From Pseudomonas sp. JQ170C (GTDB lineage Bacteria > Pseudomonadota > Gammaproteobacteria > Pseudomonadales > Pseudomonadaceae), in the NCBI RefSeq assembly GCF_035581345.1, contig NZ_CP141608.1, forward strand, positions 2,200,501 through 2,264,500: a stretch of DNA of 64,000 nt, in the 5' to 3' direction. The notes below the pieces were generated by a model. It had not been told where the DNA came from. It did not search any database and saw only the letters and a program-made list of their open reading frames with translations. The first letter of the stretch is position 1. Every line of letters begins with the position of its first letter. Positions 3,100-58,168 of this stretch are shown here, piece after piece. A program made the translations under genes and the position numbers.

Positions 3100-3118
3100 T
3101 AGTCCGCTTTGACGATGA
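3100..3118 (+). promoter_or_regulatory. TAGTC-N5-GACGATGA operator, copy 1
   Basis: TAGTCCGCTTTGACGATGA ends 58 bases before the tesH-like start codon at 3177. A GATCAT hexamer centred about 30 bases downstream could be the -10, which places the palindrome over the -35 region as an activator site. It is nearly identical to the copy at 44657-44675. Confidence 0.75.
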
Positions 3119-3176
3119 GCCCGCCGCACGCTGAGTCGATCATCAGGTCTGTCTCTCAGCCAATGGCATAACAATA

Positions 3177-4886
3177 ATGACAGCTCAAGTTCAGACTCAA
3201 AGCGCCTATGACGTGATCGTCGTCGGCTCGGGTGCCGGAGCAATGGCTTCGGCAGTGTTCCTCGCCGATCAGGGGTTCAGCGTGCTGGTCGTGGAGAAGA
3301 GCGACAAGTACGGCGGCACCTCGGCGATTTCCGGCGGCGGTATCTGGATTCCCAACAATCATTATTTTGCCCGCAAGGGCGGCAATGACAGTGTCGAGCT
3401 GGCCCTGACCTACCTCAAGGCGGCCGCGGGCGACCATGTGGACGAAGCGCGTTTGCGTGCCTACCTCGACAACGCGCCGAAGATGATCGAAACCCTCACC
3501 CGCACCAGCCGCGTGCGCTACGCGGTGGCGGAGAAATACCCCGACTACTATCCGCACCTGCCCGGCGCCTTGCCCGGTGGCCGGACCCTTGACCCCGAGC
3601 TGTTCGATACCAGCCTGCTGGGCGAGGAACTGGACAACCTGCGCAAACCTTCGCCCTCGACGCTGCTGATGGGCCGCATTGCCTGGACCGCCCGCCACGC
3701 CCACAAGGCCATGGCCCGGGGCTTTGGCTGGCAGTTGCTGATTCTGCGGCTAATGGTGCGCTACAAGCTGGACTTCAAATGGCGGCGCAAGAGCAAGTAC
3801 GACCGCCGCGCCGCCCTGGGCAGTTCGCTGGTGGCGTCGCTGCGCCGTTCGTTGATGGACCGCAATGTGCCGCTGTGGCTGAACACCGATTTCTCTGGCC
3901 TGGTCAGCGAGCAGGGGCGTGTCACCGGTGTGACGGTGGTGCGCGACGGCCGCGAGGTGACGCTCACGGCGCGCCACGGGGTGATCCTCGGCTCCGGCGG
4001 TTTCGAGCAGAACCAGGCACTGCGCGAGCAGTACTTGCCGCAACCCACGCGCATGGCCTGGAGTGCCACGCCACCGGGCAACAACACCGGTGCCGCCTTG
4101 CAGGCCGGCCTGGCCCAGGGCGCGGCAACCGCGCTGATGGACTGGGCCTGGTGGGCGCCGACCATTGCTGTACCGGGGGAAGAAAAACCGCGCGGTATCT
4201 TTGCCGAGCGGGCGTTCCCCGGCGCCATCGTGGTCAACGGCCTCGGCCAGCGCTTCATCAATGAAGCCGCGCCGTACCTGGAATTTGTCGACGCCATGTA
4301 CCGCGACAACGACGTCACCGGCGGCAAGAGCGTACCGGCCTGGGTGATCTTCGACGGGCACTTCCGGCACAACTACGCCATGGGCCCGCTGATGCCGGCC
4401 CAGGTCATGCCCGACAGTCGCCTGCGCAAAGAATGGCGCAACAGCCTGTACTGGAAGGCCGACTCCCTGGCCGAACTGGCGCAGCTGATCGGCGTCGACG
4501 CCGCGGGGCTGGAAAGCACCGTGGCCAAGGTCAACGACTATGCCCGCACCGGTGTCGACCCGGACTTCGGCCGTGGCGGCAATGTGTTCGACCGCTACTA
4601 CGGCGACAGCAACGTCAAGCCCAATCCGTGCCTGGCACCGCTGCGCAAGGGCCCGTACTACGCCATGCGCATGGACGCCGGGGACATCGGCACCAAGGGC
4701 GGCCTGCTGACCAACGCCGATGCCCAGGTGGTGCGCGAGGACGGCCAGCCGATTGCCGGGCTGTACGCCATCGGCAACTGCTCGGCCTCGGTGATGGGCA
4801 CCAGCTACCCCGGTGCCGGTGGCACGTTGGGGCCGGCGATGACCTTCGCCTACGTGGCCGCCAACCACCTCGCCAGCCAACGCTAG
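3177..4886 (+). CDS. tesH: 3-ketosteroid delta-1-dehydrogenase (KstD/TesH type)
   Basis: This 569-residue flavoprotein should introduce the C1-C2 double bond into 3-ketosteroid ring A, a prerequisite for ring B opening. The FAD dinucleotide fold is at residues 12-42 (VIVVGSGAGAMASA, then VVEKSDKYGGTSAISGGG). The C-terminal signature GPYYAMRMDAGDIGTKGG...AGNCSASVMG.SYPGAGGTLGP matches the KstD active-site Tyr-x3-Gly region and FAD-contacting segment. Length is usual for the family. It is followed at 8 bp by the second ketosteroid dehydrogenase gene, the same pairing as tesH-tesI of Comamonas testosteroni. An operator copy (3100-3118) precedes it. The exact substrate preference cannot be read from the sequence. 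Confidence 0.85.
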   Translation: MTAQVQTQSAYDVIVVGSGAGAMASAVFLADQGFSVLVVEKSDKYGGTSAISGGGIWIPNNHYFARKGGNDSVELALTYLKAAAGDHVDEARLRAYLDNAPKMIETLTRTSRVRYAVAEKYPDYYPHLPGALPGGRTLDPELFDTSLLGEELDNLRKPSPSTLLMGRIAWTARHAHKAMARGFGWQLLILRLMVRYKLDFKWRRKSKYDRRAALGSSLVASLRRSLMDRNVPLWLNTDFSGLVSEQGRVTGVTVVRDGREVTLTARHGVILGSGGFEQNQALREQYLPQPTRMAWSATPPGNNTGAALQAGLAQGAATALMDWAWWAPTIAVPGEEKPRGIFAERAFPGAIVVNGLGQRFINEAAPYLEFVDAMYRDNDVTGGKSVPAWVIFDGHFRHNYAMGPLMPAQVMPDSRLRKEWRNSLYWKADSLAELAQLIGVDAAGLESTVAKVNDYARTGVDPDFGRGGNVFDRYYGDSNVKPNPCLAPLRKGPYYAMRMDAGDIGTKGGLLTNADAQVVREDGQPIAGLYAIGNCSASVMGTSYPGAGGTLGPAMTFAYVAANHLASQR

Positions 4887-4894
4887 GAGCCGCC

Positions 4895-6622
4895 ATGCAG
4901 ACGTCCGATACGTTTTCAAGCTGCAGCACCATCCTGGCGCCGCTGCGGGTCAGCGACAGCAAGACGCTGAAGTGGGATGAACAGTGCGATGTGCTGGTCA
5001 TCGGCTGGGGCGCGGCCGGTGCCTGCGCGGCCCTCGAAGCCCGCGCCAGTGGCGCCGATGTGGTGATCGCCGACCGCTTTACCGGCGGTGGCGCCAGTGC
5101 CAAGAGTGGCGGCGTGGTGTATGCCGGCGGGGGCACCCGCCAGCAGCAGGCCGCCGGTGTCGCCGACAGCCCGCAAGCGATGTTCGATTACCTCAAGCAT
5201 GAAACCTGCGGCGTGGTCAGCGACACCACCTTGCGGCGCTTCTGCGACCAGAGCGTGGCCAACCTTGAATGGCTGCAAGGCCACGGCGCGCCCTATGGCC
5301 ACCAGATGCCACCAGGCGGCAAGACCTCGTACCCGGCCGATGGCTATTTTCTCTACTTCTCCGGCAACGAACTGGTGCCCTCGCACACCGACACCCTGCC
5401 ACCCGCACCCCGGGGCCATCGCACCGTGGGCAAGGGGCAGGGCGGTGCGGTGCTGTATGGCCACCTCCAGGCCGCGTGCCTCAAGGCAGGCGCACGCCCG
5501 TTGCTGCAAGCGGCGGCACGGCGCCTGGTGCTCGACGGTCAGGGCCGGGTGATCGGTGCCGAGTTGTGGCGCCTGTCACCGGGCAGTGAGGCGGCGAAAA
5601 CCCACGCGCGCCTGGCCGCCCGCGCCGAGCGCTGGCAGAACCTGGCGCCGGGGTTCTGCGACAAGCTGCGCCAGCGCGTCAGCAGGCTTGAGCGCGAGCA
5701 TGCGCAGCCCTACCGGGTGCATGCCCGCCAGGGTGTGGTGCTGAGCACCGGTGGATTCATCTTCAACCGAGAGTTGATGCGTGAGCATGCGCCGGGCTAT
5801 CGGCGCAATTTCAAGGTGGGTGCCACCGGCTGTGACGGCAGCGGCCTGCGCCTGGGCCAGAGCGCCGGGGCCGCCAGTGGCGGGCTTGAGCGGGTGTCGG
5901 CCTGGCGCTTTATCAACCCGCCGCACTGCTGGCCCAAGGGCATTGTGGTCAACCGCGACGGCAAGCGTTTCTGCAACGAGGAAGTGTACGGCGCCACCCT
6001 CGGCCAGCCGCTGATGGAAGAGCAGGGGGGCCGCGCCTGGCTGGTGCTCGATGCCCGGTTGCGCGCCAAGGCCATACGCCAGGCCCTGTTCGGTGGCTAT
6101 TGGTGGTTCCAGACCGTACCGGCACTGGCGCTGATGCTGTGCAAGCCGCGCAAGGGCAAGACCCCGACGCAGCTTGCCCAGGCCACCGGCATGCAGGTCG
6201 AGGCGCTGGGCCAGGCGCTGCAGCGCAACAATGCGGCGGCGCGGGGTGAGGCCGAGGATGAGTGGGGCAAATCACCGGGCAGTCGCCAGGTGCTGGATCA
6301 GGGCCCGTTCTATGCCTGCGATATTTCCGTGGGCAATCCGATTTTTCCGCTGGGTGCACTGACCCTTGGCGGCCTGAAGGTGAATGAAGACAGCGGCGCC
6401 GTGCTCGACGCCCAGGGGCAGGCGATTCCTGGCTTGTATGCCGCGGGCCGCACGGCGTTGGGTATTCCTTCGCACCTGTACATCAGCGGTCTGTCGCTGG
6501 CGGACTGCGTGTTTTCCGGGCGTCGCGCGGGGGCCGCCATCGCGGCGCAAACCCGCGCCCAACGCACCGTAGCGGCGGGCTTGCCCCGCGAAGCATCAAC
6601 CACAACACGAGGTGAAATATGA
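4895..6622 (+). CDS. tesI: 3-oxosteroid 4-dehydrogenase-like flavoprotein (TesI/Kst4D type)
   Basis: The gene encodes 575 residues from the ATG at 4895, preceded by TAGGAGCCGCC. The same frame stays open back to 4433, but that stretch is antisense-type noise over tesH. An FAD-binding motif (DVLVIGWGAAGACAALEA) lies near residue 35, with GGASAKSGGVVYAGGG after it. The C-terminal GLYAAGRTALGIPSHLYISGLSLADC differs from the delta-1 enzyme and resembles the delta-4-(5alpha) dehydrogenase branch. It would desaturate C4-C5 of 3-keto-5alpha-steroids. The last dozen residues (TVAAGLPREAS...) are encoded by a REP palindrome. The stop overlaps the next start as ATGA, so translation is probably coupled to the SDR. 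The family is certain, the regiospecificity less so. Confidence 0.7.
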   Translation: MQTSDTFSSCSTILAPLRVSDSKTLKWDEQCDVLVIGWGAAGACAALEARASGADVVIADRFTGGGASAKSGGVVYAGGGTRQQQAAGVADSPQAMFDYLKHETCGVVSDTTLRRFCDQSVANLEWLQGHGAPYGHQMPPGGKTSYPADGYFLYFSGNELVPSHTDTLPPAPRGHRTVGKGQGGAVLYGHLQAACLKAGARPLLQAAARRLVLDGQGRVIGAELWRLSPGSEAAKTHARLAARAERWQNLAPGFCDKLRQRVSRLEREHAQPYRVHARQGVVLSTGGFIFNRELMREHAPGYRRNFKVGATGCDGSGLRLGQSAGAASGGLERVSAWRFINPPHCWPKGIVVNRDGKRFCNEEVYGATLGQPLMEEQGGRAWLVLDARLRAKAIRQALFGGYWWFQTVPALALMLCKPRKGKTPTQLAQATGMQVEALGQALQRNNAAARGEAEDEWGKSPGSRQVLDQGPFYACDISVGNPIFPLGALTLGGLKVNEDSGAVLDAQGQAIPGLYAAGRTALGIPSHLYISGLSLADCVFSGRRAGAAIAAQTRAQRTVAAGLPREASTTTRGEI

Positions 6623-7377: not shown

Positions 7378-7380
7378 GTG

Positions 7381-7835: not shown

Positions 7836-7836
7836 C

Positions 7837-8622: not shown

Positions 8623-8678
8623 GGGCATCCTCGTGCGCGTAAGTCGATGCCCCAGTGTCAGCACCTGCCCGGTGCAAT

Positions 8679-8697
8679 TCATCGTCCGTTCAGACGA
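8679..8697 (-). promoter_or_regulatory. TAGTC-N5-GGACGATGA operator, copy 2 (divergent)
   Basis: Read leftward it is TCGTCTGAACGGACGATGA, ending 57 bases before the hydratase start at 8622. GACACT lies at the expected -10 distance. On the other side it is 59 bases from the SDR start at 8756 and no second copy exists there, so this one palindrome may serve both divergent units. Confidence 0.7.
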
Positions 8698-16952: not shown

Positions 16953-18641
16953 ATGATCGAGCAACGCTGGCAGAGCGCCTGGGAGCAACTGATTGCACCG
17001 GGCTCGCCGTTTGAAGTGGTGACCCCGGCCGACGGTGGCCCGCGCTATTTTCGCCACGCCGCCTGCGACCTGCTGCAACTCATCGACGCTGCGCGGGTGC
17101 ATGGCAACCGCGAGTTCGTGGTGTGGCAGGAGCAGCGGCTGACATTCGACCAGTACTTTGACCAGGTCGATCGACTGGCCGGGCAACTGATCGACAGCTT
17201 CAACGTGAAACCCGGCGAGCGCGTGGCCATCGCCATGCGCAACCAGCCGGCCTGGCTGGTGGTCTTTGCCGCCATCCAGCGCTGCGGCGCCGTGTGTGTG
17301 CCGCTCAACAGCTGGGGCCTGCGCGACGAGTTGCTGCACGGTGTGCAGGACAGCGGCGCCTGCCTGCTGCTGTGCGATGACGCCCGCTTGCAGGTGGTCG
17401 CCCAGGACCTGGCCGCGATCAACCTGCCCACCATCGTGGTCGGCGCCACGCCGGGGCTGGCACTGCCGGCTCACTGTCGCCGCTACGAGTACCTGCTGGC
17501 GGCACCACCGTTGCCGGTGCCGGCCCTGCAGCCGGACCCGGATGCGCCGGCGCTGATCCTCTATACCTCGGGTACCACCAGCCGCGCCAAAGGGGTGTTG
17601 TCCAGCCACCGGGCGATCTGCCAGGCGCTGACGGCACTGGAATTCCAGGGTGCGCACTGCGCCATGAGTTCGCCCGAGCGCATTGGTGCGGTGATCGACA
17701 GCGGCTTTGCCCCGACCAGCCTGATCGCCGTGCCGCTGTTTCATGTCAGTGGCCTGCATGCGCAGTTCTTGTTGGCCCTGCGCACCGGCCGGCGCCTGGT
17801 GCTGATGTACAAGTGGGATGTGGAGCGCGCGCTGGACCTGATTCGCGACGAGCACTGCACCCAGTTCAACGGCGCGCCGGTGATGATGCAGCAGTTGCTG
17901 GACTCGCCGCGCTTTGGCGGCGAGCACACCGCCAGCCTGTTCGGCCTTGGCCTGGGCGGCGGCGCCTCGACCACGGGATTGCTCGCCAGCATGATCGAGC
18001 GCAAACCCGATGCCATTGGCGGCAGCGGCTATGGCCTGACCGAAAGCAATGGCATCGGCGCGGCGGTGGGGGGCGACCAGTTCGTCTACAAGCCGTCCAG
18101 CTGTGGCTGGCCCTTGCCGATCGTCGATGTGCGTATCGGCAATGACCCGCAGCAGCCATTGCCGGTCGGCAGCAGCGGCCTGATCTGGCTGCGCGCGCCG
18201 ACCCTGATGCAGGGCTACTGGAACCTGCCGCAGGAAAGCGCCGCCACCTTGCGCGATGGCTGGCTCGATACCGGCGACACCGGCTACCTCGATGAAGAAG
18301 GCTTTCTGTGCATCAGCGGGCGAATCAAGGACCTGATCAACCGGGGCGGCGAGAAGATCTCGGCGGCCGAGATCGAGGCCTGCATCGGTGACATGCCGGG
18401 GGTGGAGGAGGCAGCTGCGTTTGCCATACCGCATCCGCAACTGGGCGAGGCGGTGGCACTGGCTGTGCGCGCCGTGCAGCACCTCGATGCCCAGGCCATC
18501 TGTGCCTATATCGGTGAACGCCTGGCGGCCTACAAGGTGCCGGCGCGGGTGTTCCTGCACGCAGGGCCGCTGCCGCGCAATGCCACCGGCAAAGTGATCA
18601 AGAGCGAGCTGCAAAAAACTGCCGCGCTGGCTGATTTTTAG
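16953..18641 (+). CDS. Acyl-CoA synthetase (AMP-forming), steroid carboxylate ligase candidate
   Basis: This 562-residue ANL-superfamily ligase has the P-loop LILYTSGTTSRAKGV, GSGYGLTESNG, the hinge CISGRIKDLINRGGEKIS and the C-terminal lysine motif RNATGKVIKSEL. It should activate a carboxylic acid to its CoA thioester through an acyl-adenylate. As the last gene of the side-chain operon it most likely primes a C24 bile acid or a shortened C22 acid for beta-oxidation. The open frame on the opposite strand (15687-18737) is a shadow. A stop at 18641 immediately precedes the operator for the next gene. Confidence 0.83.
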   Translation: MIEQRWQSAWEQLIAPGSPFEVVTPADGGPRYFRHAACDLLQLIDAARVHGNREFVVWQEQRLTFDQYFDQVDRLAGQLIDSFNVKPGERVAIAMRNQPAWLVVFAAIQRCGAVCVPLNSWGLRDELLHGVQDSGACLLLCDDARLQVVAQDLAAINLPTIVVGATPGLALPAHCRRYEYLLAAPPLPVPALQPDPDAPALILYTSGTTSRAKGVLSSHRAICQALTALEFQGAHCAMSSPERIGAVIDSGFAPTSLIAVPLFHVSGLHAQFLLALRTGRRLVLMYKWDVERALDLIRDEHCTQFNGAPVMMQQLLDSPRFGGEHTASLFGLGLGGGASTTGLLASMIERKPDAIGGSGYGLTESNGIGAAVGGDQFVYKPSSCGWPLPIVDVRIGNDPQQPLPVGSSGLIWLRAPTLMQGYWNLPQESAATLRDGWLDTGDTGYLDEEGFLCISGRIKDLINRGGEKISAAEIEACIGDMPGVEEAAAFAIPHPQLGEAVALAVRAVQHLDAQAICAYIGERLAAYKVPARVFLHAGPLPRNATGKVIKSELQKTAALADF

Positions 18642-18657
18642 TCTTTCCGGACGATGA
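18639..18657 (+). promoter_or_regulatory. TAGTC-N5-GGACGATGA operator, copy 3
   Basis: TAGTCTTTCCGGACGATGA begins in the stop codon of the acyl-CoA synthetase and ends 65 bases before the DUF1329 start at 18722. An AAGAAT hexamer sits at the -10 distance. It gives this gene its own promoter inside an otherwise rightward run. Confidence 0.75.
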
Positions 18658-20722: not shown

Positions 20723-21436
20723 ATGCCCCCCTTCAACCAACGCTCGGCAGGCCTCGATCTGGTCAAGTGGTTGGCCATGGTCACGATGGTGGCCGATCAT
20801 CTGCGGTTTATCTGGCCGTCGGCCGAATGGCTGTTCGTTGTCGGCCGTCTCGCGTTCCCGCTGTTCTGCCTGGCCATTGCCGCCAACGTCGCACGTTCGG
20901 CGGTGGGGCAGGTATTCACGTCGGCCAATGGCCGTTACCTGGGCTGGATGCTGGTGTTCTCGGTGCTTTCGGAGTGGCCCTATCACGTGCTGGATGTCGG
21001 TACCCGCACGTTCAGCATCATGCCGACCCTGACCCTGGGGTTGCTGCTGGCCTGGGGTGTCCATCACGCCACCCGGCCCATGAGGCTGCTTGCCCTGGGT
21101 ACGCTATTGGTGGCGCTGCTGGCGTCGGACGTGCTGATGTACGGCTGGCCCGGGGTGGTGTTGCCGTCGGCATTTTTATTGGCGCTTCGGGGCGGTCGGG
21201 GCACCTGGCTGGTGCCCGGGTTTGTGGCAGTGATGGCCAACCTGAGCAACGACTGGCTGCGGGCCAATCTGCTCGAGCCGATTACGCTGATGACCGTCAT
21301 GGCGGCGCTGGTGTCGGCCCCGTTGGGGATAGGGATACTGCGCGCGCAGTATTCACTGCAGGTCTGGCGGGTAGGGCGCTGGGGGTATTGGTTTTACCCC
21401 CTGCACTTGTCGCTGATCAAACTGTGGACCCTGTAG
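20723..21436 (+). CDS. TraX-family membrane protein
   Basis: This 237-residue polytopic protein starts QRSAGLDLVKWLAMVTMVADHLRFI, the hallmark N-terminus of TraX-type proteins, whose plasmid F member N-acetylates pilin. About seven hydrophobic segments follow. It ends WGYWFYPLHLSLIKLW, also typical. Chromosomal TraX homologues are common in Pseudomonas and need not be linked to conjugation; no other transfer gene is present. Its TAG stop is supplied by the REP core that begins at 21433. It sits between two copies of a degenerate repeat and has no operator copy, so it is probably unrelated to steroid use. Confidence 0.8.
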   Translation: MPPFNQRSAGLDLVKWLAMVTMVADHLRFIWPSAEWLFVVGRLAFPLFCLAIAANVARSAVGQVFTSANGRYLGWMLVFSVLSEWPYHVLDVGTRTFSIMPTLTLGLLLAWGVHHATRPMRLLALGTLLVALLASDVLMYGWPGVVLPSAFLLALRGGRGTWLVPGFVAVMANLSNDWLRANLLEPITLMTVMAALVSAPLGIGILRAQYSLQVWRVGRWGYWFYPLHLSLIKLWTL

Positions 21437-23525: not shown

Positions 23526-23583
23526 AGCGGGTGCTCCCGGTCTTGTTCTAGTCGGCAGATCGTCGGGGGTTGCGCAGGGCATT

Positions 23584-23602
23584 TCATCGTCCGTTCAGAC
23601 CA
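23584..23602 (-). promoter_or_regulatory. TAGTC-N5-GGACGATGA operator, copy 4
   Basis: Read leftward it is TGGTCTGAACGGACGATGA, ending 59 bases before the chosen MFS start at 23525. That distance independently supports the GTG start over the upstream ATG. Confidence 0.75.
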
Positions 23603-23633: not shown

Positions 23634-23652
23634 TAGTCTCGACGGACGATGT
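23634..23652 (+). promoter_or_regulatory. TAGTC-N5-GGACGATGT operator, copy 5
   Basis: TAGTCTCGACGGACGATGT is followed by CAATCAT at 23671-23677 at the -10 distance. It precedes the OYE gene at 23768 with a longer leader (115 bases). It lies 31 bases from copy 4, one for each direction. Confidence 0.75.
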
Positions 23653-23767
23653 TTCGTCTCGGCCGTAGGTCAATCATTCAGCCCATCTTCGGCGTTTCAC
23701 CAATCCCTGCCGCCGTGCAGCGCGATTCTGGCACAGCCGGAAAATTCCAAGAAGTGAAGGAGCTGAC

Positions 23768-31777: not shown

Positions 31778-32233
31778 TCAAATCCAGGTGGCATCCCAGA
31801 GCGGATAGTCACCTGCCTTCCGAGCCAGCCCCGCCCGAATGGGGTTGGCGACGATGTAGCGGGCGATGTCCTGCACCTCTTCTGTACGAACCGCCCTGTC
31901 GTAAAATCCCTTTTGCCACATTCGCCCATGGCCGTTGGTCAATCGGTTGATGGACAGGCTACTTCTGGACTTTACCGTGCACATGACTTGGGAAAGACAG
32001 GGGGCCTGTAGCGTGAACAGCCAGTGGAAATGGTCCGGCATCACCACCCATGCCAACGAGCAGACCCATTGCTCTTCATGCGCCCGCCGCAGCTCCCTGA
32101 CGAGCAAACGACCTGACGGGAACTCGCCCAGAACGGGTCGACGTCGATGGGTTACAACCGTTACCGAGTAGATCTGTCCTGGTTCCGAGTGACGTCCTGC
32201 CAACAGCCGATAACCGTTTGAATGAACAAGCAT
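31778..32233 (-). CDS. REP-associated tyrosine transposase (RAYT, IS200-like)
   Basis: This 151-residue Y1 transposase of the RAYT/TnpA-REP group has the HUH-type motif MPDHFHWLF (His68, His70), the probable catalytic Tyr111 in QKGFYDRAV, and the C-terminal RYIVANPIRAGL. GAGGG lies 8 bases before the ATG at 32233. RAYTs are thought to mobilise REP/REPIN palindromes, and a five-unit REP-like array starts 100 bp upstream of this gene. Both ORF and motif look intact. It is convergent with the steroid hydratase gene, with only 6 bp between stops. Confidence 0.88.
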   Translation of the reverse strand: MLVHSNGYRLLAGRHSEPGQIYSVTVVTHRRRPVLGEFPSGRLLVRELRRAHEEQWVCSLAWVVMPDHFHWLFTLQAPCLSQVMCTVKSRSSLSINRLTNGHGRMWQKGFYDRAVRTEEVQDIARYIVANPIRAGLARKAGDYPLWDATWI

Positions 32234-32983: not shown

Positions 32984-33002
32984 TAAGCCGTTTGGACGAT
33001 GT
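32984..33002 (+). promoter_or_regulatory. TAGTC-N5-GGACGATGT operator, copy 6
   Basis: TAAGCCGTTTGGACGATGT keeps the right half exactly, with two changes in the left half. TATCGA at 33025-33030 is at the -10 distance. It lies 143 bases before the YCF48-like gene, implying a longer leader than at most copies. Confidence 0.6.
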
Positions 33003-33145
33003 TTCCAAGCAGTCTTCCCGCGAGTATCGAGTGCAGGCAATGCCCCCTTCACGCCCCGCGCAGCCCGCACGGGAGCGGAGCAGAACAAGAGGATTGGCCG
33101 CATGAATGTCCGTGTGTTCCTGTGTCATGAAACGGAGCGACCCCT

Positions 33146-34117: not shown

Positions 34118-34127
34118 GAGGCGGGCA

Positions 34128-36748: not shown

Positions 36749-37984
36749 GTGGAAAATCCCGTGTTGACTCACGCTGCACTGGCCGAGCTGGGCCTGGACC
36801 TTGCCGGCTACGACCGCCTGGTTGGCGACATCTATGATGGCGCCCTCGATCCCAGGCCCATGGCGCACACCCTCGAGAACCTGCGCCAGGCGTTTCAGGC
36901 CAACTACGTGACCCTGATTTTGCGCGTTCCCGACCAGCCCGACATGGGCGTGATGATCGTCGCCGGCGACATCGAGGGCGAAGGCGAGGTCATCTACATG
37001 GCCTACCCCCAGGCCCATACGCCCTTCAGCGGTCAGCCGCTGGACCAGGTGGTCACCATCGACGACATCATGACCTCGGCGCAGTGGGAGCAGGACCCTT
37101 ACTTCAAGATGTACTGCAGCCAGCAGAACGTCTACCACGTGATGGGCGTCGATATCTCCACCCCCGACAGCGGCAAACTGCGCTTTCGCGTGACCCGGGC
37201 CAAGACATCCCCCAACTTCTCGCTCAGTGATCGGGCACTGTGCGCAAGCTTCATTCCGCACCTTCGCCGGGCCCTGAACATTCATAACCTGCTCGATCGC
37301 AGCGAGTCGATCAGCGAGCTGTATGCCCAGGCCATCAGCCGCCTGTCGGTGGCCACCCTGGTGCTGGACGAGAGCGGCAGCGTGCTGCGGGTCAACCCCG
37401 TGGCGCAGAGCATCCTTGCCAGCGGCGATGGCCTGAAGCTAGTGGGCGGCCGCCTGGAGGCCACCTACCCGAGCGACAACCGCGAACTGCAGCGCCTGAT
37501 CCGCTCGGCCTTCTCCGAAGATACCCTCAAGACCGCCGAGGCCATGTCGGTGACCCGGCCTTCGGGGCAGGTGAACCTGGGGCTGGTGGTCGAGCCCATT
37601 CCGTCCATGGACTGGGCCGACGAGAAGGGCAAGCCGGCGGCGCTGGTGTACATCCGCGATGCGGCGAGCAAGTCGCTGGCCAGCGAGGTGGTCACCAAGC
37701 AGCTGTTCAACCTGACCAAGGCCGAAACCGCCCTGGCCATGGAGCTGGCCAACGGCCTGTCGCTGGAGGAGGCCGCCGAGATTCTCAACATTCGCCGCAA
37801 CACGGCCCGTGCGCACCTGCGCTCGATCTTCTCCAAGACCGGTGTGCGTCGCCAGACAGAGCTGGTGCGCATCCTGCTCAACAGCGTGGTGGCGCTGGGT
37901 AAGCCCCAGGCGACCCTTAAGGTCGCGGCAAAACCCAAGGTCCAGGTGCCCCCCTTGGCCCTGGCCAGCCGTCGCCAGGCGTAG
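36749..37984 (+). CDS. LuxR-type transcriptional regulator (TeiR-like)
   Basis: The start is the GTG at 36749 with AAGGAG 7 bases upstream; the product has 411 residues. The C-terminal helix-turn-helix spans about residues 318-385 (LTKAETALAMELANGLSLEEAAEILNIRRNTARAHLRSIFSKTGV), a classic LuxR/GerE fold. The long N-terminal part (1-190) looks like a sensory domain with no autoinducer-binding signature I recognise, followed by a PAS-like stretch near 190-290. Comamonas testosteroni TeiR, a LuxR-type activator of testosterone degradation, has the same size and layout. It is the only transcriptional regulator in the window and the natural candidate to bind the 14 operator copies. Its own upstream region has none. 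Confidence 0.82.
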   Translation: MENPVLTHAALAELGLDLAGYDRLVGDIYDGALDPRPMAHTLENLRQAFQANYVTLILRVPDQPDMGVMIVAGDIEGEGEVIYMAYPQAHTPFSGQPLDQVVTIDDIMTSAQWEQDPYFKMYCSQQNVYHVMGVDISTPDSGKLRFRVTRAKTSPNFSLSDRALCASFIPHLRRALNIHNLLDRSESISELYAQAISRLSVATLVLDESGSVLRVNPVAQSILASGDGLKLVGGRLEATYPSDNRELQRLIRSAFSEDTLKTAEAMSVTRPSGQVNLGLVVEPIPSMDWADEKGKPAALVYIRDAASKSLASEVVTKQLFNLTKAETALAMELANGLSLEEAAEILNIRRNTARAHLRSIFSKTGVRRQTELVRILLNSVVALGKPQATLKVAAKPKVQVPPLALASRRQA

Positions 37985-38000
37985 TCCGCACGGACGATGC
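37982..38000 (+). promoter_or_regulatory. TAGTC-N5-GGACGATGC operator, copy 7
   Basis: TAGTCCGCACGGACGATGC has the best dyad of all copies (AGTCC/GGAC(g)). It begins with the TAG stop of the regulator gene and ends 53 bases before hsdA. GATACT at 38021-38026 is a good -10 at the expected spacing. Confidence 0.8.
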
Positions 38001-38053: not shown

Positions 38054-38821
38054 ATGCCAGTTACAGCTATCACCGGCAGCGCCTCGGGTATCGGCGCTGC
38101 CGTCAGCGCCGCGCTGCGCGCCGCCGGCCACCGGGTCATCGGTATCGACCGGGCCAATGCCGAAGTGCTTGCCGACCTGTCCACCGCCAGTGGCCGTCAA
38201 GCGGCCATCGCCGCCGTGCTGGAGCAGAGCGAAGGCGTGCTCGACGGCCTGGTGTGCTGCGCCGGCGTGGGCGTCACGGCGCCGTCGTGCGGCCTGATCC
38301 TGTCGGTCAACTACTTCGGCGTCAGCCAACTGCTCGACGGCCTGTCCGGCGCGCTGGCCAAGGGCGCTCAGCCGGCGGCGCTGGTGATCGGCTCGGTGGC
38401 CTCGACCCAGCCGGGCGCGGACCAGCAACCGATGACCGAGGCGCAGTTGGCCGGCAACGAAGCCGACGCCTGTGTCCTGGCCGACAGCCTCGGCCAGCCC
38501 CACGTGGCCTATGCCAGTTCCAAATACGCCATCACCCAGCACGCACGCCGCCTGGCCAAGCCGTGGGCCGAGCAGGGCATCCGCCTCAACGTGGTCGCCC
38601 CCGGCGCGGTACAGACGCCCCTGCACCAGGCCTCGCTGGACGACGCCCGCTTCGGCAAGGCCGTGCGCGACTTCGTCGCCCCGCTGGGGCGCGCCGGCAC
38701 CCCTGAAGAAATCGCCAGCCTGGTGGCCTTCCTGCAATCGTCCAAGGCGGCCTTTATCCACGGCAGCGTGGTGTTCATCGACGGCGGCATGGATGCTATG
38801 GTCCGCCCGCAACGCTTCTAG
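38054..38821 (+). CDS. hsdA: 3alpha-hydroxysteroid dehydrogenase/carbonyl reductase
   Basis: This 255-residue SDR is very close in layout to Comamonas testosteroni 3alpha-HSD/CR. It has TGSASGIG (7-14), GIDRANAEVLADLST, SVNYFG, Ser114 in VIGSVAS, Tyr153-x3-Lys157 in YASSK, and the C-terminal FIDGGMDAMVRP. It oxidises the 3alpha-hydroxyl of bile acids and androsterone to the 3-ketone with NAD+, the first ring-A step. It lies 69 bp after the regulator gene with its own operator, and 11 bp before another SDR. Among the SDRs in the window this has the firmest assignment. Confidence 0.88.
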   Translation: MPVTAITGSASGIGAAVSAALRAAGHRVIGIDRANAEVLADLSTASGRQAAIAAVLEQSEGVLDGLVCCAGVGVTAPSCGLILSVNYFGVSQLLDGLSGALAKGAQPAALVIGSVASTQPGADQQPMTEAQLAGNEADACVLADSLGQPHVAYASSKYAITQHARRLAKPWAEQGIRLNVVAPGAVQTPLHQASLDDARFGKAVRDFVAPLGRAGTPEEIASLVAFLQSSKAAFIHGSVVFIDGGMDAMVRPQRF

Positions 38822-38832
38822 AAGGAAACCCC

Positions 38833-39666
38833 ATGAACAAGGTGGCATTCATAACCGGCGCCAGCCGTGGCATCGGCCGTGAGGCAGCGCTGGCGTTCGC
38901 CCGTGCAGGCTTTGACCTGGCGATCAGTGCGCGCACCGTCGACGAGGGCGAGCAGCATGAACACGCCCTTCGCGATGCGGCGGGCGAGCCGCTGGCCGGT
39001 AGCCTCAACAGCACCGCGGCGGCCATTCGCGAGTTGGGCCGGCGCGTGCTGGTGATACCGATGGACCTGCTCGACAGCGCCTCGGCCCTGGCGGCGTGTG
39101 CACAGGTGATCGCCGAGTTCGGCCGCATCGACGTGCTGGTCAACAACGCGATCTACCAGGGGCGTGACCTCAACAGCGGCTTTCTGGCCTTGCAACCGCA
39201 GACCCTGGAGCGGGTGTTCCAGGGCTACATCCTCACCCCCTTCCTGCTGACCCGGGCGGTGGCGGAGCACATGCTGGAGCAGGGCGGCGGGGTGGTCATC
39301 AACGTCACCTCCGGCGCCGGCGAGAGCGATCCGCCGGTGGCGGCCGAAAAGGGTGGCTGGGGCTATGCCTATGGCGCAGGCAAGGCAGCGGTGTCGCGGC
39401 TGGCGGGCGTGATCGCGGCGGAGCTGGGTGAGCGGGGTATTTGCGCCTACACGATCAACCCGGGCGTGGTGAGCACCGAAGCATTGAAGGCGACCATTGG
39501 CGACAAAGGCGTCATTGCCTTGCGCGCGGGCATTGCGCCGCCACAGGTGCCGGCGCAAGTGATGCTGTGGCTGGCGACCTCACCCGAGGCGCCGCGTTAT
39601 CAGAAACGCACCATCGCCGCCCAGCCGTTCGCCCTGGAGCAACAGATAGTGGCGGACTGGCGCTAA
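38833..39666 (+). CDS. Short-chain dehydrogenase/reductase, extended loop
   Basis: This 277-residue SDR has TGASRGIG (8-15), NNAIYQG, Ser160 and Tyr180-x3-Lys184 (YGAGK). It has extra residues around 38-60 (an insertion rich in Glu/His) compared with the other SDRs here. AGAAGGAAACCCC precedes the ATG at 38833. It is co-transcribed with hsdA. A hydroxysteroid or 3-hydroxyacyl-CoA substrate is likely. The sequence does not say which. Confidence 0.72.
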   Translation: MNKVAFITGASRGIGREAALAFARAGFDLAISARTVDEGEQHEHALRDAAGEPLAGSLNSTAAAIRELGRRVLVIPMDLLDSASALAACAQVIAEFGRIDVLVNNAIYQGRDLNSGFLALQPQTLERVFQGYILTPFLLTRAVAEHMLEQGGGVVINVTSGAGESDPPVAAEKGGWGYAYGAGKAAVSRLAGVIAAELGERGICAYTINPGVVSTEALKATIGDKGVIALRAGIAPPQVPAQVMLWLATSPEAPRYQKRTIAAQPFALEQQIVADWR

Positions 39667-40075
39667 CGCTGTGGAAGCAGCATTGGCGACTGCTACGCAG
39701 TCGATCGCAGCCTGTCGGCAGCGGCTACGGCGATGTAGCCGCTGCCGAGGTACGAGGCTGCGATCGGCCGCGCAGCGGGCGTAGATCGTTTCCCGGACTG
39801 ATCGCAGTGGGAGCAGGCTTGCCCCACGATGCGACGGAACAGGACGACGCTATCGCGGGGCAAGCCCGCTCCTACAGATTCGCGCAGCGCCTGACATCAC
39901 CGCATTGGCGACTGCTACGCAGTCGATCGCAGCCTGTCGGCAGCGGCTACGGGCGGTGTAGCCGCTGCCGAGGTACGAGGCTGCGATCGGCCGCGCAGCG
40001 GGCGTAGATCGTTTCCCGGACTGATCGCTGTGGGCTTGTATCGGGATGATCGCTATCGCGGGGCAAGCCCGCTCC
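39667..40075 (+). repeat. Repeat cassette, second copy
   Basis: No gene is seen apart from the end of the ACT gene at 40053. Two direct copies of the hairpin element (GCATTGGCGAC at 39680 and 39902, 222 bp apart) with intervening REP cores reproduce the cassette at 7381-7835 almost base for base, in the same orientation. Confidence 0.85.
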
Positions 40076-40466
40076 TACCTAGCGCTTCCAGTACCTCGAC
40101 GGCCCGCTGGGCATCCGCTTTTGCGACAAAAATATGGTCATGGTAGTAAGCGGCAATCACATTGCAGCTGATCCCTGCATTGCCAAGCGCGGTCGCGAAC
40201 GCAGCCGTCAGCCCCACGGCCTCCAGGGCCGAGTGGATGGTCAGGGTGATCCAGGCCGCCACGTAGCTGTATTGCAGGCCCAGCGCCTCGGCCTGGCTTC
40301 GCTCCAGAATGACCGTCAGCCCTTCTTTTTCCCGGAAGCTACCCAGCACCTCTGCCTCCAGGCGCGTGCCCGGTTCGAGTGTGCAGAACACGTAGTCGCC
40401 ATCGTTGAGTTCGGGCTTCATGCCGCTCAGGAGTTTGGACAGGGATTTTTCGCCGGACATTGGCAC
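40053..40466 (-). CDS. ACT-domain protein
   Basis: This 137-residue protein has the small ligand-binding ACT fold pattern: beta-rich N-terminus (GDYVFCTLEPGT), then AAWITLTIHSALEAVGLTAAFATALGNAGISCNVIAAYYHDHIFVAKADAQRAVEVL. These ACT proteins are usually stand-alone amino-acid sensors of unknown target. It has no operator copy and is read against its neighbours, so it is likely not part of the steroid pathway. The last seven residues (RSGLAPR) and the stop are encoded by a REP core. Confidence 0.7.
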   Translation of the reverse strand: MPMSGEKSLSKLLSGMKPELNDGDYVFCTLEPGTRLEAEVLGSFREKEGLTVILERSQAEALGLQYSYVAAWITLTIHSALEAVGLTAAFATALGNAGISCNVIAAYYHDHIFVAKADAQRAVEVLEALGRSGLAPR

Positions 40467-44332: not shown

Positions 44333-44351
44333 GCATCGTCTCAATGGACTA
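44333..44351 (-). promoter_or_regulatory. TAGTC-N5-GGACGATGC operator, copy 8
   Basis: Read leftward it is TAGTCCATTGAGACGATGC, ending 65 bases before the SDR start at 44267. AATACT is positioned as a -10. Confidence 0.72.
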
Positions 44352-44656: not shown

Positions 44657-44675
44657 TAGTCCGCTTTGACGATGA
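44657..44675 (+). promoter_or_regulatory. TAGTC-N5-GACGATGA operator, copy 9
   Basis: TAGTCCGCTTTGACGATGA is identical over 19 bases to copy 1, with the same GATCAT hexamer 29 bases from its centre (44695-44700). It precedes tesA2. Confidence 0.8.
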
Positions 44676-44748
44676 AGTCACCGCTGTGCAATCCGATCAT
44701 CAATCACGGCTCGCGCATTGGCGCTACGAGATTGGGAGAACAAGAAGG

Positions 44749-48686: not shown

Positions 48687-48705
48687 TAGGCCATATGGAT
48701 GATGT
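48687..48705 (+). promoter_or_regulatory. TAGTC-N5-GGACGATGT operator, copy 10
   Basis: TAGGCCATATGGATGATGT differs at two key bases but ends 63 bases before the DUF1302 start at 48769, the usual distance. A REP-like fragment lies just upstream (48610-48675). Confidence 0.6.
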
Positions 48706-48768
48706 TCGCGCCGCCGCCGCGTTTCACTCTGCGCACGTCAACCACAACAACAAGAAAAGGAATGCTGC

Positions 48769-50400: not shown

Positions 50401-50416
50401 TCAAAAGGGCCCTGCC

Positions 50417-53198: not shown

Positions 53199-53315
53199 GG
53201 CGAGTCTCCAGTGTCGACGATAGGGGAGCGCGTGCGCAGGCCGCGTTGGGCCTGAAGGGGCGAAGGTGCCGGGCCTGGTTCGCGCAGGGTCGATCCTCCA
53301 TCGCCGCCACCCCGG

Positions 53316-53334
53316 CGGCATCGTCCATTCAGAC
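53316..53334 (-). promoter_or_regulatory. TAGTC-N5-GGACGATGC operator, copy 11
   Basis: Read leftward it is TGGTCTGAATGGACGATGC, 117 bases before the tesD start. It is paired with the rightward copy 12 only 21 bases away, the same back-to-back arrangement as copies 4 and 5. Confidence 0.7.
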
Positions 53335-53354
53335 CACACCCTGGTGGCCGTCGG

Positions 53355-53373
53355 TAGTCCTATCGGACGATGC
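53355..53373 (+). promoter_or_regulatory. TAGTC-N5-GGACGATGC operator, copy 12
   Basis: TAGTCCTATCGGACGATGC is followed by CAATCAT (53392-53398) at the -10 distance. It drives the SDR-SDR-BaiE-like operon starting at 53461. Confidence 0.78.
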
Positions 53374-53460
53374 CTGTTCAGGGCCTCGGCCCAATCATGC
53401 AGGTGACCGGCCTGCTGTGTTGTCAGTGGGCTTCTACGCACTGCACGGCAGGAGAACGCT

Positions 53461-54204
53461 ATGAAGTTGCTGAACAAAGTCGCCTTTGTCACAGGCGCAG
53501 GGCAGGGAATGGGGCAGGCCATGGTGCGCCGCTTCGTGGCCGAGGGCGCCAAGGTGGTGGCGGTGGACCTCAACCAGGAGGCCCTGGCCAACAGCCTCGC
53601 CGATCTGGCCGACCTGAATGATCGGGTCCTGGCGCTGGCCTGCAACGTCGCCGACGCCGCCTCCGTGGCCGATGCCATGGGGCAGGTCGAGGCGCGTTTC
53701 GGCGGGCTCGACATTCTGGTCAACAACGCCGGTGTCGGCGCCTTCGACAGCTTTCTCGACACCCCGGACGAAAACTGGGCGCGGGTGATCGGGGTGAACC
53801 TGGGCGGCACTTTCCTGTGCTGTCGCGAGGGCGCGAAGCTGATGGTCAAGGGCGCACGCAAGGGAGTCATCATCAACCTCTCCAGCACCGCCGCGCTGAC
53901 CGGTGAAGGTCCAAGCCACTACTGCGCCTCCAAGGCCGGGGTCATGGGCTTGACCCGTTCGATCGCCCGCGAACTGGCCCCCAGCGGCATCCGCGTCAAC
54001 AGCCTGGTACCGGGCCCGACCAACACCCCGATGATGGCCGGCGTTGCCGACGAACACATGCAGGCGATGCTCAAGAACGTGCCCCTGGGCCGCTTGTGCG
54101 AGACCGACGAAATCGCCGGGGTCGCGGTGTTCCTGGCCGGCGACGACGCCAGCTTCATCACCGGCCAGAACATCGCGGTCAACGGCGGCATGGCCTTTAT
54201 CTGA
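53461..54204 (+). CDS. Short-chain dehydrogenase/reductase
   Basis: This 247-residue classical SDR has TGAGQGMG (11-18), NNAGVG (88-93), Ser141/142 and Tyr154-x3-Lys158 (YCASK), and a C-terminal INVNGGMAF-like end. GGAGAACGCT precedes the ATG. It is the first gene of a three-gene operon with another SDR and a BaiE-like protein. A hydroxysteroid (for example 7- or 12-hydroxyl) is a likely substrate by context. Confidence 0.75.
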   Translation: MKLLNKVAFVTGAGQGMGQAMVRRFVAEGAKVVAVDLNQEALANSLADLADLNDRVLALACNVADAASVADAMGQVEARFGGLDILVNNAGVGAFDSFLDTPDENWARVIGVNLGGTFLCCREGAKLMVKGARKGVIINLSSTAALTGEGPSHYCASKAGVMGLTRSIARELAPSGIRVNSLVPGPTNTPMMAGVADEHMQAMLKNVPLGRLCETDEIAGVAVFLAGDDASFITGQNIAVNGGMAFI

Positions 54205-54214
54205 GGGGAATTCG

Positions 54215-54988
54215 ATGAGCAAACGATTAGCAGGCAAGATTGCCTTTATCACCGGGGCCGGCTCCGGCATTGGCCAGGCCACCGCGCTGCGCTTTGCCGA
54301 GGAAGGCGCCATGGTGGTGCTCTGCGGGCGACGCGAGCAGCCTTTGCAGCAGGTGCTGGAACTGATCCAGGCCGCAGGCGGGCAGGGCGACATCGCCGTG
54401 GCCGATGTGAGCAACGAGCAGGCCTATGTCGGCGCCCTGGAAGACGCCGCCCGGCGTCACGGGCGCCTGGACATCCTGGTCAACAACGCCATGGCCTACA
54501 CCTGGGGCGGCGTCGATACGCTGTCGACCGCCGACTGGCACGCCAACTTCAGCACCACCGTCGATGGCACCTTCTTCGGCACCCGCACCGCCATGCGCCT
54601 GATGAAAGACCAGGGCGGCGGCGCCATCGTCAACATCGCCTCGATCTGCGGCCTGTTCGGCACCGCCTGGATGGCCGGCTACTCGGCGGCCAAGGCCGCG
54701 GTGATCAACTTCAGCCGGGCAGTGGCCAGCGAAGGCGCAGCGCACAACATTCGCTGCAACGTGGTCATCCCGGGCGTGGTCGACACCCCGGCCACCGCGG
54801 GCATGCTCAGCGACGCGAAAACCCGTCGCAACACTGAAAAGGTCATCCCGATGCAGCGGGTCGGCCTGCCGGTGGAACTGGCCAACGCGATCCTGTTCCT
54901 GGCCAGCGACGAAGCCTCCTATGTAACGGGCGCCAGCCTGGCGGTGGATGGCGGGCGCAGCGCGGACCTGTACACGGTGCTGGAGTGA
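54215..54988 (+). CDS. Short-chain dehydrogenase/reductase
   Basis: The product has 257 residues from the ATG at 54215 (GAGGGGAATTCG upstream). SDR motifs are TGAGSGIG (13-20), NNAMAYTWG (the third position is Met in place of Gly), Ser143 and Tyr156-x3-Lys160 (YSAAK). It follows the previous SDR by 10 bp, and its stop overlaps the next start (TGATG), so it is tightly coupled to the dehydratase-like gene. It probably acts on the same substrate position as that enzyme. Confidence 0.75.
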   Translation: MSKRLAGKIAFITGAGSGIGQATALRFAEEGAMVVLCGRREQPLQQVLELIQAAGGQGDIAVADVSNEQAYVGALEDAARRHGRLDILVNNAMAYTWGGVDTLSTADWHANFSTTVDGTFFGTRTAMRLMKDQGGGAIVNIASICGLFGTAWMAGYSAAKAAVINFSRAVASEGAAHNIRCNVVIPGVVDTPATAGMLSDAKTRRNTEKVIPMQRVGLPVELANAILFLASDEASYVTGASLAVDGGRSADLYTVLE

Positions 54989-55617
54989 TGGACATGGACG
55001 CGCTGCACGCGCGCATCGACCGCCTGGAGTCGCTGGATGCGATTCGCCAGCTGGCCGGCAAGTACGCCCTGGCCCTGGACATGCGCGACATGGATGCCAT
55101 GGCCAATTGCTTTGTGCCGGACGTCAAAGTCGGCCGCGACAAGCACGGCCGCGCGCACTTCAAGGCCTGGCTGGACGACACCATGCGCCGCCAGTTCCAC
55201 GGCACCTCCCATCACCTGGGCCAGCACATCATCGAGTTCAGCGATGCCGACCATGCCACGGGCGTGGTCTATTCCAAGAACGAGCATGAGACCGGTGCGG
55301 AATGGGTGATCATGCAGATGCTGTACTGGGACGACTATGAGCGGGTAGACGGGCGCTGGTGCTTCCGCCGGCGCCTGCCGTGCTACTGGTACGCCACCGA
55401 CCTGAACAAACCGCCGATCGGCGGCATGAAAATGCGCTGGCCGGGGCGTGAGCCGTACGCCGGCAGCTTTCATGAACTGTTCCCGTCGTGGGATGCCTTC
55501 TGGGCGCAGCGGCCGGACAAGGACGCCTTGCCGCAGATTGCCGAGCCTGCGCCGCTCGAGGAATTCCTGCTGACCCTGCGCCGGGGTGCGGGTGAGCCGA
55601 GGATTCGCGTGCGCTGA
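54988..55617 (+). CDS. SnoaL/NTF2-like protein resembling bile-acid 7alpha-dehydratase BaiE
   Basis: The product has 209 residues from the ATG that overlaps the SDR stop. It has a SnoaL-like cone fold pattern. The N-terminal stretch DAIRQLAGKYALALDMRDMD lines up with DIEAIKELKGKYFRCLDGK of BaiE as I remember it. This places Tyr26 and Asp31 on BaiE Tyr30 and Asp35, and His76 in SHHLGQH on BaiE His83, the three catalytic residues. The protein is about 40 residues longer at the C-terminus. A 7alpha- (or other) hydroxysteroid dehydratase, like Hsh2 of Sphingobium, is therefore the best hypothesis. A generic polyketide-cyclase or isomerase relative remains possible. Confidence 0.65.
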   Translation: MDMDALHARIDRLESLDAIRQLAGKYALALDMRDMDAMANCFVPDVKVGRDKHGRAHFKAWLDDTMRRQFHGTSHHLGQHIIEFSDADHATGVVYSKNEHETGAEWVIMQMLYWDDYERVDGRWCFRRRLPCYWYATDLNKPPIGGMKMRWPGREPYAGSFHELFPSWDAFWAQRPDKDALPQIAEPAPLEEFLLTLRRGAGEPRIRVR

Positions 55618-55623
55618 ACCGGC

Positions 55624-55677: not shown

Positions 55678-55685
55678 ACTTTCTG

Positions 55686-58039: not shown

Positions 58040-58099
58040 AAGCGTCGACTCGGTCAAGGCGGGTAGAGGCCCGAGTCTAGGAGCGGGGCTTTTGTCGCC

Positions 58100-58118
58100 G
58101 AATCATTGAAACGGACTA
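58100..58118 (-). promoter_or_regulatory. Degenerate operator, copy 13
   Basis: Read leftward it is TAGTCCGTTTCAATGATTC. The left half is perfect and the right half keeps only A.GAT. It ends 60 bases before the ACAD start and TAGACT sits at the -10 distance, so position supports it although the sequence is weak. Confidence 0.45.
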
Positions 58119-58149
58119 GTCTGCAAGCCGCCCGCAGCACCAGGGCGCG

Positions 58150-58168
58150 TAGTCTCAACGGACGATGA
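58150..58168 (+). promoter_or_regulatory. TAGTC-N5-GGACGATGA operator, copy 14
   Basis: TAGTCTCAACGGACGATGA ends 63 bases before the tesB start at 58232. CACAAT (58188-58193) is at the -10 distance. It is the only copy for the whole 58.2-64 kb operon. Confidence 0.8.

Follow-up and report, generated by a model that had tools for sequence, protein, structure and literature searches.

Does the short sequence TAGTC-N5-GGACGATGA, which recurs in front of the catabolic units of a steroid-degradation gene cluster in Pseudomonas sp. JQ170C, constitute a genuine operator, and if so, which protein reads it? We addressed this question in a 64-kb window of the JQ170C contig (the whole stretch of DNA that was analysed; its positions are used below, and seven-digit coordinates are those of the contig) and in the 5.94-Mb genome to which it belongs (G000, the own genome). 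A previous inspection of the letters alone, hereafter the sequence-only reading, had listed 14 copies of the element; all of them are present, with one coordinate to be corrected, 53318(-) instead of 53316(-). With up to 3 mismatches allowed, the pattern matched 18 times in the window versus 2.53 expected, and none of 100 shuffled windows reached this number, the largest count being 9. The 18 matches include 13 of the 14 listed sites, the remaining 5 lying at other places; the 14th site, 58100(-), is degenerate, falls below the pattern search and was read directly from the sequence. A matrix built from the 14 sites gave leave-one-out scores of 17.6-26.0 bits in 13 of them and 12.4 bits for the site at 58100. 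The element is real, strong and specific. As judged from the evidence below, it very probably forms a promoter module with class II geometry for a TeiR/TesR-type LuxR-family activator, read by one or both of two related proteins, namely, the product of the gene starting at 36749 and that of a paralogue to the right of the window.

How specific the element appears across the genome depends on how much of the promoter is demanded. At up to one mismatch, the bare pattern matched 11 times in the own genome, with 10 of these matches located within 2203600-2278037. At up to 2 mismatches, it matched 37+38 times versus 45+40 for the reversed pattern, and we discarded the bare 19-mer at this level as a genome-wide test, its background being equal to that of the reversed control. 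The composite query, consisting of the operator and a -10 hexamer at fixed spacing, gave 7 exact matches, all inside the window, and 13 matches with one mismatch, 5 in the cluster and 8 elsewhere. At two mismatches, 55 matches were found, 3 of them in the cluster; this level was likewise rejected as unspecific, with 75 matches in all, mostly off the cluster, and 14 in total for the reversed composite (up to 2 mismatches). Specificity is therefore limited to exact and near-exact composite matches, because looser matching fills with background. In terms of the genome-wide scan, which the sequence-only reading had put forward as a means of refutation, the genome outside the cluster thus has no exact composite match and 8 with one mismatch. 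A matrix scan of 244 kb surrounding the window plus 20 kb from other parts of the genome gave six further sites of at least 17 bits adjoining the window, hence 20 sites together with the 14. Since these six sites flank the window, the regulon covers about 78 kb and runs past both window ends, kshA included; the cluster-wide regulon proposed earlier is therefore borne out in that sites precede most steroid units, but the window does not contain all of it.

Column counts over the 14 sites resolve the module into an imperfect dyad at columns 1-16 (centre 8.5; 16-bp consensus T[A/C]GTCY-N4-RGACGA), a TG at columns 17-18 and a hexamer nAnnAT at columns 39-44. Columns 17-19 (TGA) have no mirror on the left, column 0 never being A in the 14 sites; the dyad is real, but its description as a 19-bp palindrome is inexact because only columns 1-16 are symmetric. 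The recurring -10-like hexamer noticed earlier was recovered: it begins at column 39, 30.5 bases from the dyad centre, and when scored against a -10 table, -10-like sequences start at columns 38-40 in 9 of the 14 window sites, versus at most 1 of 14 for any other three-column window. The end of the site lies 53-65 bases before the chosen start codon in 9 of the 14 sites and 73-143 bases in the other 5, which confirms a near-fixed gap but corrects the earlier figure of ten sites at 54-66 bases. The same profile, including the hexamer, was seen in 221 matrix matches in 16 other genomes; the hexamer played no part in picking these matches, and the stretches had been chosen around regulators and bare-pattern matches. 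Sequences resembling a -10 occur at columns 38-40 in 132 of 184 non-redundant sites of other Pseudomonas (other windows at most 18), in 35 of 45 sites at 16 named loci of Aromatoleum, Azoarcus, Thauera, Zoogloea and metagenome-assembled genomes (at most 6), and in 5 of 11 sites of genome G224 (at most 2). If column 44 is taken as -7, the predicted transcription start falls on column 51 and the dyad spans -50 to -35 with its centre at -42.5; a 17-base spacer then places the -35 hexamer at columns 16-21 (ATGAnn), and the -10 lies about 19 bases beyond the tail. We also searched for the dyad with a symmetrised model that ignores the tail, which yielded 206 dyads outside the own genome: 174 carry TG on one side only, 7 on both sides and 25 on neither, and a correctly spaced -10 accompanies 141 of 188 TG sides versus 39 of 224 other sides (p ~3e-33, a guide only, since sites in related genomes are not independent). 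Because the tail tracks the -10 side, we regard the TG as a -35-like part of the promoter, and TG(A) is probably the sigma-70 -35 element. By this linkage the dyad abuts or overlaps the -35 element, as is characteristic of class II promoters, and the dyad itself appears to do little to set direction.

The box and the regulator occur together. In a sample of 149 Pseudomonas genomes, a homologue of the 36749 product (E 1e-20 or better) was present in 21, and all 21 harbor 2-7 exact composite matches each; the counts for G414 and G475 both include one match of non-operator type. Of the 128 regulator-free genomes, 13 contain any exact composite match and 1 contains two, and the reversed composite matched once in the 149 genomes. 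The 14 matches in these 13 genomes are made up of two recurring sequences, TCGTCCAG(A/G)TCGACGATG... in 12 genomes and TGGTCCTG(C/T)TCGACGATG... in 2, which we rejected as non-operator but kept in the counts. Nine of the 21 regulator genomes hold only a regulator of 39-41% identity; in three of these, G414, G397 and G461 (loci L098-L101 and L132-L134), the steroid cluster is arranged differently and has the same box, a gene-by-gene comparison of these clusters identifying KstD- and TesB-like genes, and KshA by Pfam in G414. Genomes G474, G484 and G500 carry the box and a single regulator, of the 36749 type.

We then compared homologous promoters for 18 units, taking as homologues the best tblastn hits in fetched regions, which are not proven orthologues. 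After removal of 3 of the 308 rows for too little upstream sequence, a site of at least 15 bits was kept upstream in 228 of 305 rows, corresponding to 200 distinct sites (rows are not all independent, one gene sometimes being the best homologue of two queries). The site was found in 131 of 159 rows from close Pseudomonas and in 97 of 146 from distant hosts, versus 0 with the reversed matrix and a mean of 0.55, with a largest value of 3, for 20 permuted matrices. Among the well-kept units are tesB (15 of 15, including Caballeronia and G224), kshA (16 of 17), the SDR unit at 53461 (19 of 20) and the YCF48/MMPL unit (21 of 21 with enough upstream sequence). Between close species, the site is 74-100% identical, a figure helped by matrix selection, and the flanks and spacers are 28-70% identical, mostly 30-50%; one faulty row (G500, DUF1302) is contained in that unit's close-species figures. 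Identity of the four central bases among close species is 79% for one and the same promoter versus 34% between promoters, and thus each promoter keeps its own version.

The candidate reader, encoded at 36749..37984 (+), is a TeiR/TesR-type regulator of 411 amino acids with a LuxR/GerE helix-turn-helix (HTH) and a GAF-like and PAS-like sensor part. Its C-terminus matches PF00196 (GerE) with 28.2 bits versus a cut-off of 23.5; apart from a sub-threshold HTH_30, Pfam gave no other match, so neither an autoinducer-binding domain nor a kinase domain was detected, the latter being an absence of a match, and no solved structure was matched by sequence at E 0.001. The predicted structure (mean pLDDT 70.6) comprises, with moderate confidence, GAF-like and PAS-like parts as well as the HTH; the Foldseek matches were GAF tandems of phytochromes, phosphodiesterases and sensors, at low TM-scores. 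TeiR of Comamonas testosteroni (P0251) is 45% identical to the 36749 product over 369 columns of 391 residues (E 9e-112), that is, homologous over the full length, beyond the HTH. The paralogue (G000:C1:2275293-2276513, about 10.8 kb right of the window) is 62% identical to the 36749 product over the matched part and 46% identical to TeiR over 377 columns; its recognition-helix region is 100% identical to that of 36749, and the recognition helix of TeiR is also the same. Among the hosts with a box that were compared, identity to 36749 is 33-62% in the sensor part and 88-100% in the recognition-helix region. In Sphingobium, which has no composite matches, the regulator is 35% identical overall, with 26% in the sensor part and 82% in the helix region. 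An operator lies 8 bases past the stop codon of the paralogue, and the site after 36749 overlaps the 36749 stop codon. The 36749 gene begins about 200 bases behind the boxed YCF48-MMPL genes, and read-through from these could provide feedback. No other DNA-binding regulator, and no TetR protein, was found among the window proteins scanned, which were most but not all of them. The earlier assignment of the box as an activator site read by the 36749 product is therefore the best supported one in view of co-occurrence, promoter conservation, -10 spacing and TeiR homology; however, since the paralogue has the same recognition helix, the 36749 product need not be the sole reader.

On this evidence, a LuxR-family dimer of the 36749 product, and probably also of the paralogue, would bind the 16-bp dyad via its two GerE HTH domains at about -50 to -35, where the downstream edge would touch ATGA, a poor sigma-70 -35. 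With a poor -10 (nAnnAT) 17 bases from this -35, the regulator would be placed against RNA polymerase in class II style, and detection of a steroid or steroid metabolite by the sensor part would switch the unit on. As the TG tail and the -10 set direction and the dyad is nearly neutral, divergent units can be served by two copies placed back to back or by a single dyad in common. In Comamonas testosteroni, TeiR reportedly regulates steroid genes positively (PMC8399759), and in strain TA441 the induction of tesB-tesR, tesA1-tesG and tesA2-ORF18 is reported to depend on TesR (PMC6895838). In G224, which is probably Comamonas or close kin because one of its regulators is 96% identical to TeiR (P0251), tesB and the divergent units of KstD type and TesDEFG type have a site in front of them, that of the TesDEFG-type unit being weak at 13.9 bits, and the called start of one regulator gene has a site some 70 bases ahead of it; this placement fits the TesR genetics, the genes being matched by homology only.

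Several observations weigh against this reading. The site is missing from 77 of the 305 homologue rows, some of which may be inner genes of other operons, and it was found in 0 of 9 distant homologues for each of the two DUF1329 genes and in 0 of 7 for the OYE gene. In 5 of the 14 window sites the -10 match is under the cut-off, and neither regulator gene in the own genome has a site directly upstream. Co-occurrence also tracks the steroid cluster as such, and would be matched by any regulator that invariably accompanies the cluster. The Sphingobium plasmid pTomTYG64a, with its 35% identical regulator, has 0 composite matches at up to one mismatch, and of the 4-kb loci around nine regulator copies in a draw of 399 genomes, 5 have a site of at least 15 bits and 4 do not. 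Moreover, TeiR is reported to be a membrane protein with a polar location and to act through a kinase activity (PMC8399759), which would make an indirect route possible.

One alternative concerns the reader and not the box: the paralogue might be the main reader, or both proteins might share or divide the sites, possibly as heterodimers. We hold this as a tentative possibility, in view of the 62% identity, the identical helix region and the site just beyond the paralogue's stop, and of Pseudomonas stutzeri Chol1, for which a review reports two TeiR-like genes and mentions unpublished data on a strong delay after deletion of one of them (PMC8399759). However, G474, G484 and G500 keep the box with one regulator, and hence the 36749 type alone seems enough there. 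That another transcription factor travelling with the steroid cluster binds the site is unlikely. By co-occurrence, other genes of the cluster would do as well as the regulator, and the Vibrio plasmid cluster described below contains another HTH protein, but no competitor was found among the window proteins scanned, which were most but not all of them, the HTH is nearly fixed while the sensor parts diverge in the box-bearing hosts compared, and TeiR/TesR are reported as needed in Comamonas (PMC6895838).

The site might instead be that of a repressor which sits on the -35 region and prevents transcription as long as no steroid releases it. Repressors, too, can be placed where the dyad stands, against the -35, and C. 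testosteroni is reported to have a LuxR-type protein that represses a steroid gene; yet the -35 and the -10 are both poor and keep a strict spacing to the dyad, as in activator-dependent promoters, and TeiR/TesR are reported as positive regulators (PMC8399759, PMC6895838), so that a repressor site would be quite improbable. The fixed distance to the -10-like hexamer would equally suit an alternative sigma factor for which the 19-mer is the -35 region, without an activator. We give this very little credence, given that the upstream part is a two-fold dyad usable either way, that the -10 has the sigma-70 form nAnnAT, and that the GerE regulator co-occurs in 21 of 21 genomes. Finally, a mobile repeat family or coding accident with no regulatory role, which would agree with the bare pattern being no commoner than its reversal at 2 mismatches in the own genome, has a practically negligible chance of being correct: flanks are unrelated between sites and diverge between close species far below the site (mostly 30-50% versus 74-100%), copies stand upstream of units in the right direction, and the genome-wide composite, co-occurrence and homologous-promoter results contradict it. 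The activator module read by the 36749 product, its paralogue or both remains the preferred reading.

LuxR lux boxes and other class II GerE-type sites are dyads of about 16-20 bp near -42.5 that overlap the -35 and are bound by a GerE HTH dimer. The present box is similar to them in dyad size, predicted position, -35 overlap and the predicted GerE HTH dimer, but differs in sequence, and the 36749 product has no autoinducer-binding domain match; its input is probably a steroid metabolite rather than an acyl-homoserine lactone. The KstR and KstR2 regulons of Actinobacteria share a palindromic box. They likewise form pathway-wide steroid-gene regulons (PMC8399759), but KstR and KstR2 are TetR-type repressors of sterol catabolism, in contrast to a GerE-type protein with activator-like geometry here. 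EdcR of Caenibius tardaugens, similarly a steroid-pathway regulator in a proteobacterium, is a TetR-like repressor of estrogen degradation (PMC8700777). The closest known systems are TeiR of C. testosteroni ATCC 11996 and TesR of TA441, which share whole-length homology and the recognition helix with the proteins considered here, the box occurring beside a protein 96% identical to TeiR; they differ in that they were described in connection with testosterone utilization and that a kinase activity and a polar location are reported for TeiR (PMC8399759), and the own genome has two paralogues and a seemingly bile-acid-type cluster. No TeiR/TesR operator was found in the open full-text literature, as far as the available portions of PMC6678751, PMC8399759, PMC13101464, PMC6895838, PMC8700777 and PMC12239570 go, the original TeiR papers being outside this scope.

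In kind, the system is an ordinary LuxR-family regulon. Its factual yield is the definition of a box common to proteobacterial steroid clusters. A wider proposal, on which we find ourselves evenly balanced, is that one operator-regulator code serves aerobic 9,10-seco steroid breakdown in Gamma- and Betaproteobacteria and travels with the clusters, plasmids included, that TeiR would be a one-component DNA-binding activator with no indirect membrane kinase, and that in many Pseudomonas two diverged sensors with the same helix would act on the same promoters; if so, two chemical inputs would be merged at one box in many Pseudomonas. According to a 2021 review, regulation in bile-acid-degrading Proteobacteria is still largely unknown, unlike that by KstR in Actinobacteria (PMC8399759). 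The box with its fixed promoter geometry predicts TeiR/TesR targets, suggests that the uncharacterized DUF1302, DUF1329 and YCF48-MMPL units belong to the pathway, and bears on the reported view of TeiR as a kinase. It can also be used to search new genomes and plasmids for steroid clusters, and might serve as a promoter part in steroid biosensors.

The cluster is of the 9,10-seco steroid type, with KstD-, TesB-, CoA-transferase- and ChsH2-like genes and KshA in the right flank, and from its gene content it looks like a bile-acid-type cluster. In the following, bits refer to the 14-site matrix and homologue counts to upstream sites of at least 15 bits. The operator at 3100..3118 (+; 26.5 bits, 24.6 leave-one-out; -10 GATCAT at 3138-3143) precedes the kstD unit (3177), KstD-like by NCBIfam, and the same 19-mer or one a single base off occurs in 6 of 8 close homologues. 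At 8679..8697 (-; 25.5 bits; -10 GACACT at 8654-8659), the operator serves an enoyl-CoA hydratase unit (to 7837), and the reverse side of its dyad faces the SDR-ChsH2 unit at 8756, the site being present in 11 of 11 homologues. The DUF1329 gene ending at 20104 is preceded by the site at 18639..18657 (+; 25.2 bits), found in 9 of 9 close homologues. Back to back, the sites at 23584..23602 (-; 26.2 bits; -10 GACGAT at 23559-23564; 9 of 10 homologues) and 23634..23652 (+; 24.0 bits; -10 AATCAT at 23672-23677; 6 of 9 close homologues), both exact composites, serve the MFS transporter unit and the OYE-type reductase unit (23768 onward), respectively. The operator at 32984..33002 (+; 22.7 bits; -10 GAGTAT at 33022-33027) belongs to the YCF48/BNR-MMPL unit (33146-36545) upstream of the regulator gene, and that at 37982..38000 (+; 26.1 bits; -10 GATACT one base further on; 15 of 19 homologues) to an SDR unit (38054-39666). 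By Pfam, the site at 44333..44351 (-; 22.3 bits; -10 AATACT one base further on; 11 of 14 homologues) heads an SDR/FAA hydrolase-like/acetaldehyde dehydrogenase/HMGL-DmpG aldolase unit (44336 to 40639), and that at 44657..44675 (+; 26.5 bits; -10 GATCAT at 44695-44700; 22 of 27 homologues) an acyl-CoA-dehydrogenase-fold/flavin-2Fe2S reductase/AMP-ligase unit (to 48640). The sites at 3100 and 44657 have the identical 19-mer TAGTCCGCTTTGACGATGA with unrelated flanks. The DUF1302 unit (48769 onward) has its operator at 48687..48705 (+; 22.9 bits; -10 CACTCT at 48725-48730), kept in only 7 of 18 homologues. Two further exact composites, at 53318..53336 (-; 25.8 bits; -10 GAGGAT at 53293-53298; 9 of 13 homologues) and 53355..53373 (+; 26.5 bits; -10 AATCAT at 53393-53398), belong to the alpha/beta hydrolase (TesD-type) unit and the SDR/SDR/SnoaL unit (53461-55617). 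The weak operator at 58100..58118 (-; -10 TAGACT one base further on) precedes an acyl-CoA dehydrogenase unit (58057 to 55686), and the same or a similar variant is found in 6 of 10 close Pseudomonas homologues, 4 of them letter for letter, and in 0 of 6 distant ones. The exact composite at 58150..58168 (+; 27.6 bits; -10 CACAAT at 58188-58193) precedes the tesB (58211)-CoA-transferase-ECH-NMO-ECH unit (to 63626). The genes for TraX (20723-21436), a Y1-type/RAYT transposase (31778-32233) and an ACT protein (40053-40466), which had been named as lacking the site, have their identities confirmed by Pfam and, although embedded in the cluster, indeed have no strong site.

Beyond the right end of the window, sites were found at 2269205, at 2271767 (YCF48-like gene), at 2276522 (DUF1329 gene) and at 2278019 (KshA gene), and beyond the left end at 2200343(-), belonging to a flavin reductase-like gene, and at 2200379(+). 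The latter is a perfect 16-bp palindrome, TCGTCCGATCGGACGA (window -121 to -106), with neither TG nor -10; it is located near the full site at 2200343(-) and may be an auxiliary or silent dyad.

In other hosts, composite matches with at most one mismatch, some of them off-cluster and surely due to chance, number 15 in Aromatoleum toluclasticum (11 on one contig, C12), 17 in Thauera sp. 28, 19 in Zoogloea dura, 11 in Stutzerimonas stutzeri K1, 9 on the Vibrio alfacsensis plasmid NZ_CP140104.1 (L215), 8 on the Caballeronia SBC1 megaplasmid and 2 on a Cupriavidus plasmid, with 0 for the reversed control in each. The Vibrio plasmid, from a turbot gut isolate, carries a steroid-type catabolic cluster with a TeiR-like regulator and another HTH protein. 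In Sphingobium, one dyad that lacks the TG tail stands 53 bases upstream of a gene with the annotation 3-ketosteroid 9-alpha-monooxygenase oxygenase, which is too little to claim. A class-wide search of 369 genomes found, beyond the own genome and G224, relatives of at most 35% identity only. A draw of the order of G517 gave a regulator match in 4 of 399 genomes, including G517 itself and G613, which looks like G224 again, and a draw of the order around G155 (3 genomes) gave none. The exact tesB-type 19-mer was absent from the viral contigs searched.

Some matches stand apart from the cluster promoters. The window match at 49793(+) (17.5 bits), within coding sequence and without a -10, is probably a chance match, and we set aside 2365255(-) and 3768857(+) (21.5 and 18.6 bits), also within called genes and without a -10, as chance. 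The one-mismatch match to the bare pattern away from the cluster is at 2436622(-). The composite mimic TCGTCCAG(A/G)TCGACGATGTGGAA..., found in 12 of the 13 match-bearing regulator-free genomes and also at G414:C1:3240356, with a similar sequence at 5518817 of the own genome, looks like part of one conserved gene. To the left of the window, one 19-mer occurs three times unchanged at 2196917, 2197333 and 2197749 (3.6-2.8 kb away) with a period of exactly 416 bases, which suggests that a tandem repeat of about 416 bp adjoins the cluster on this side.

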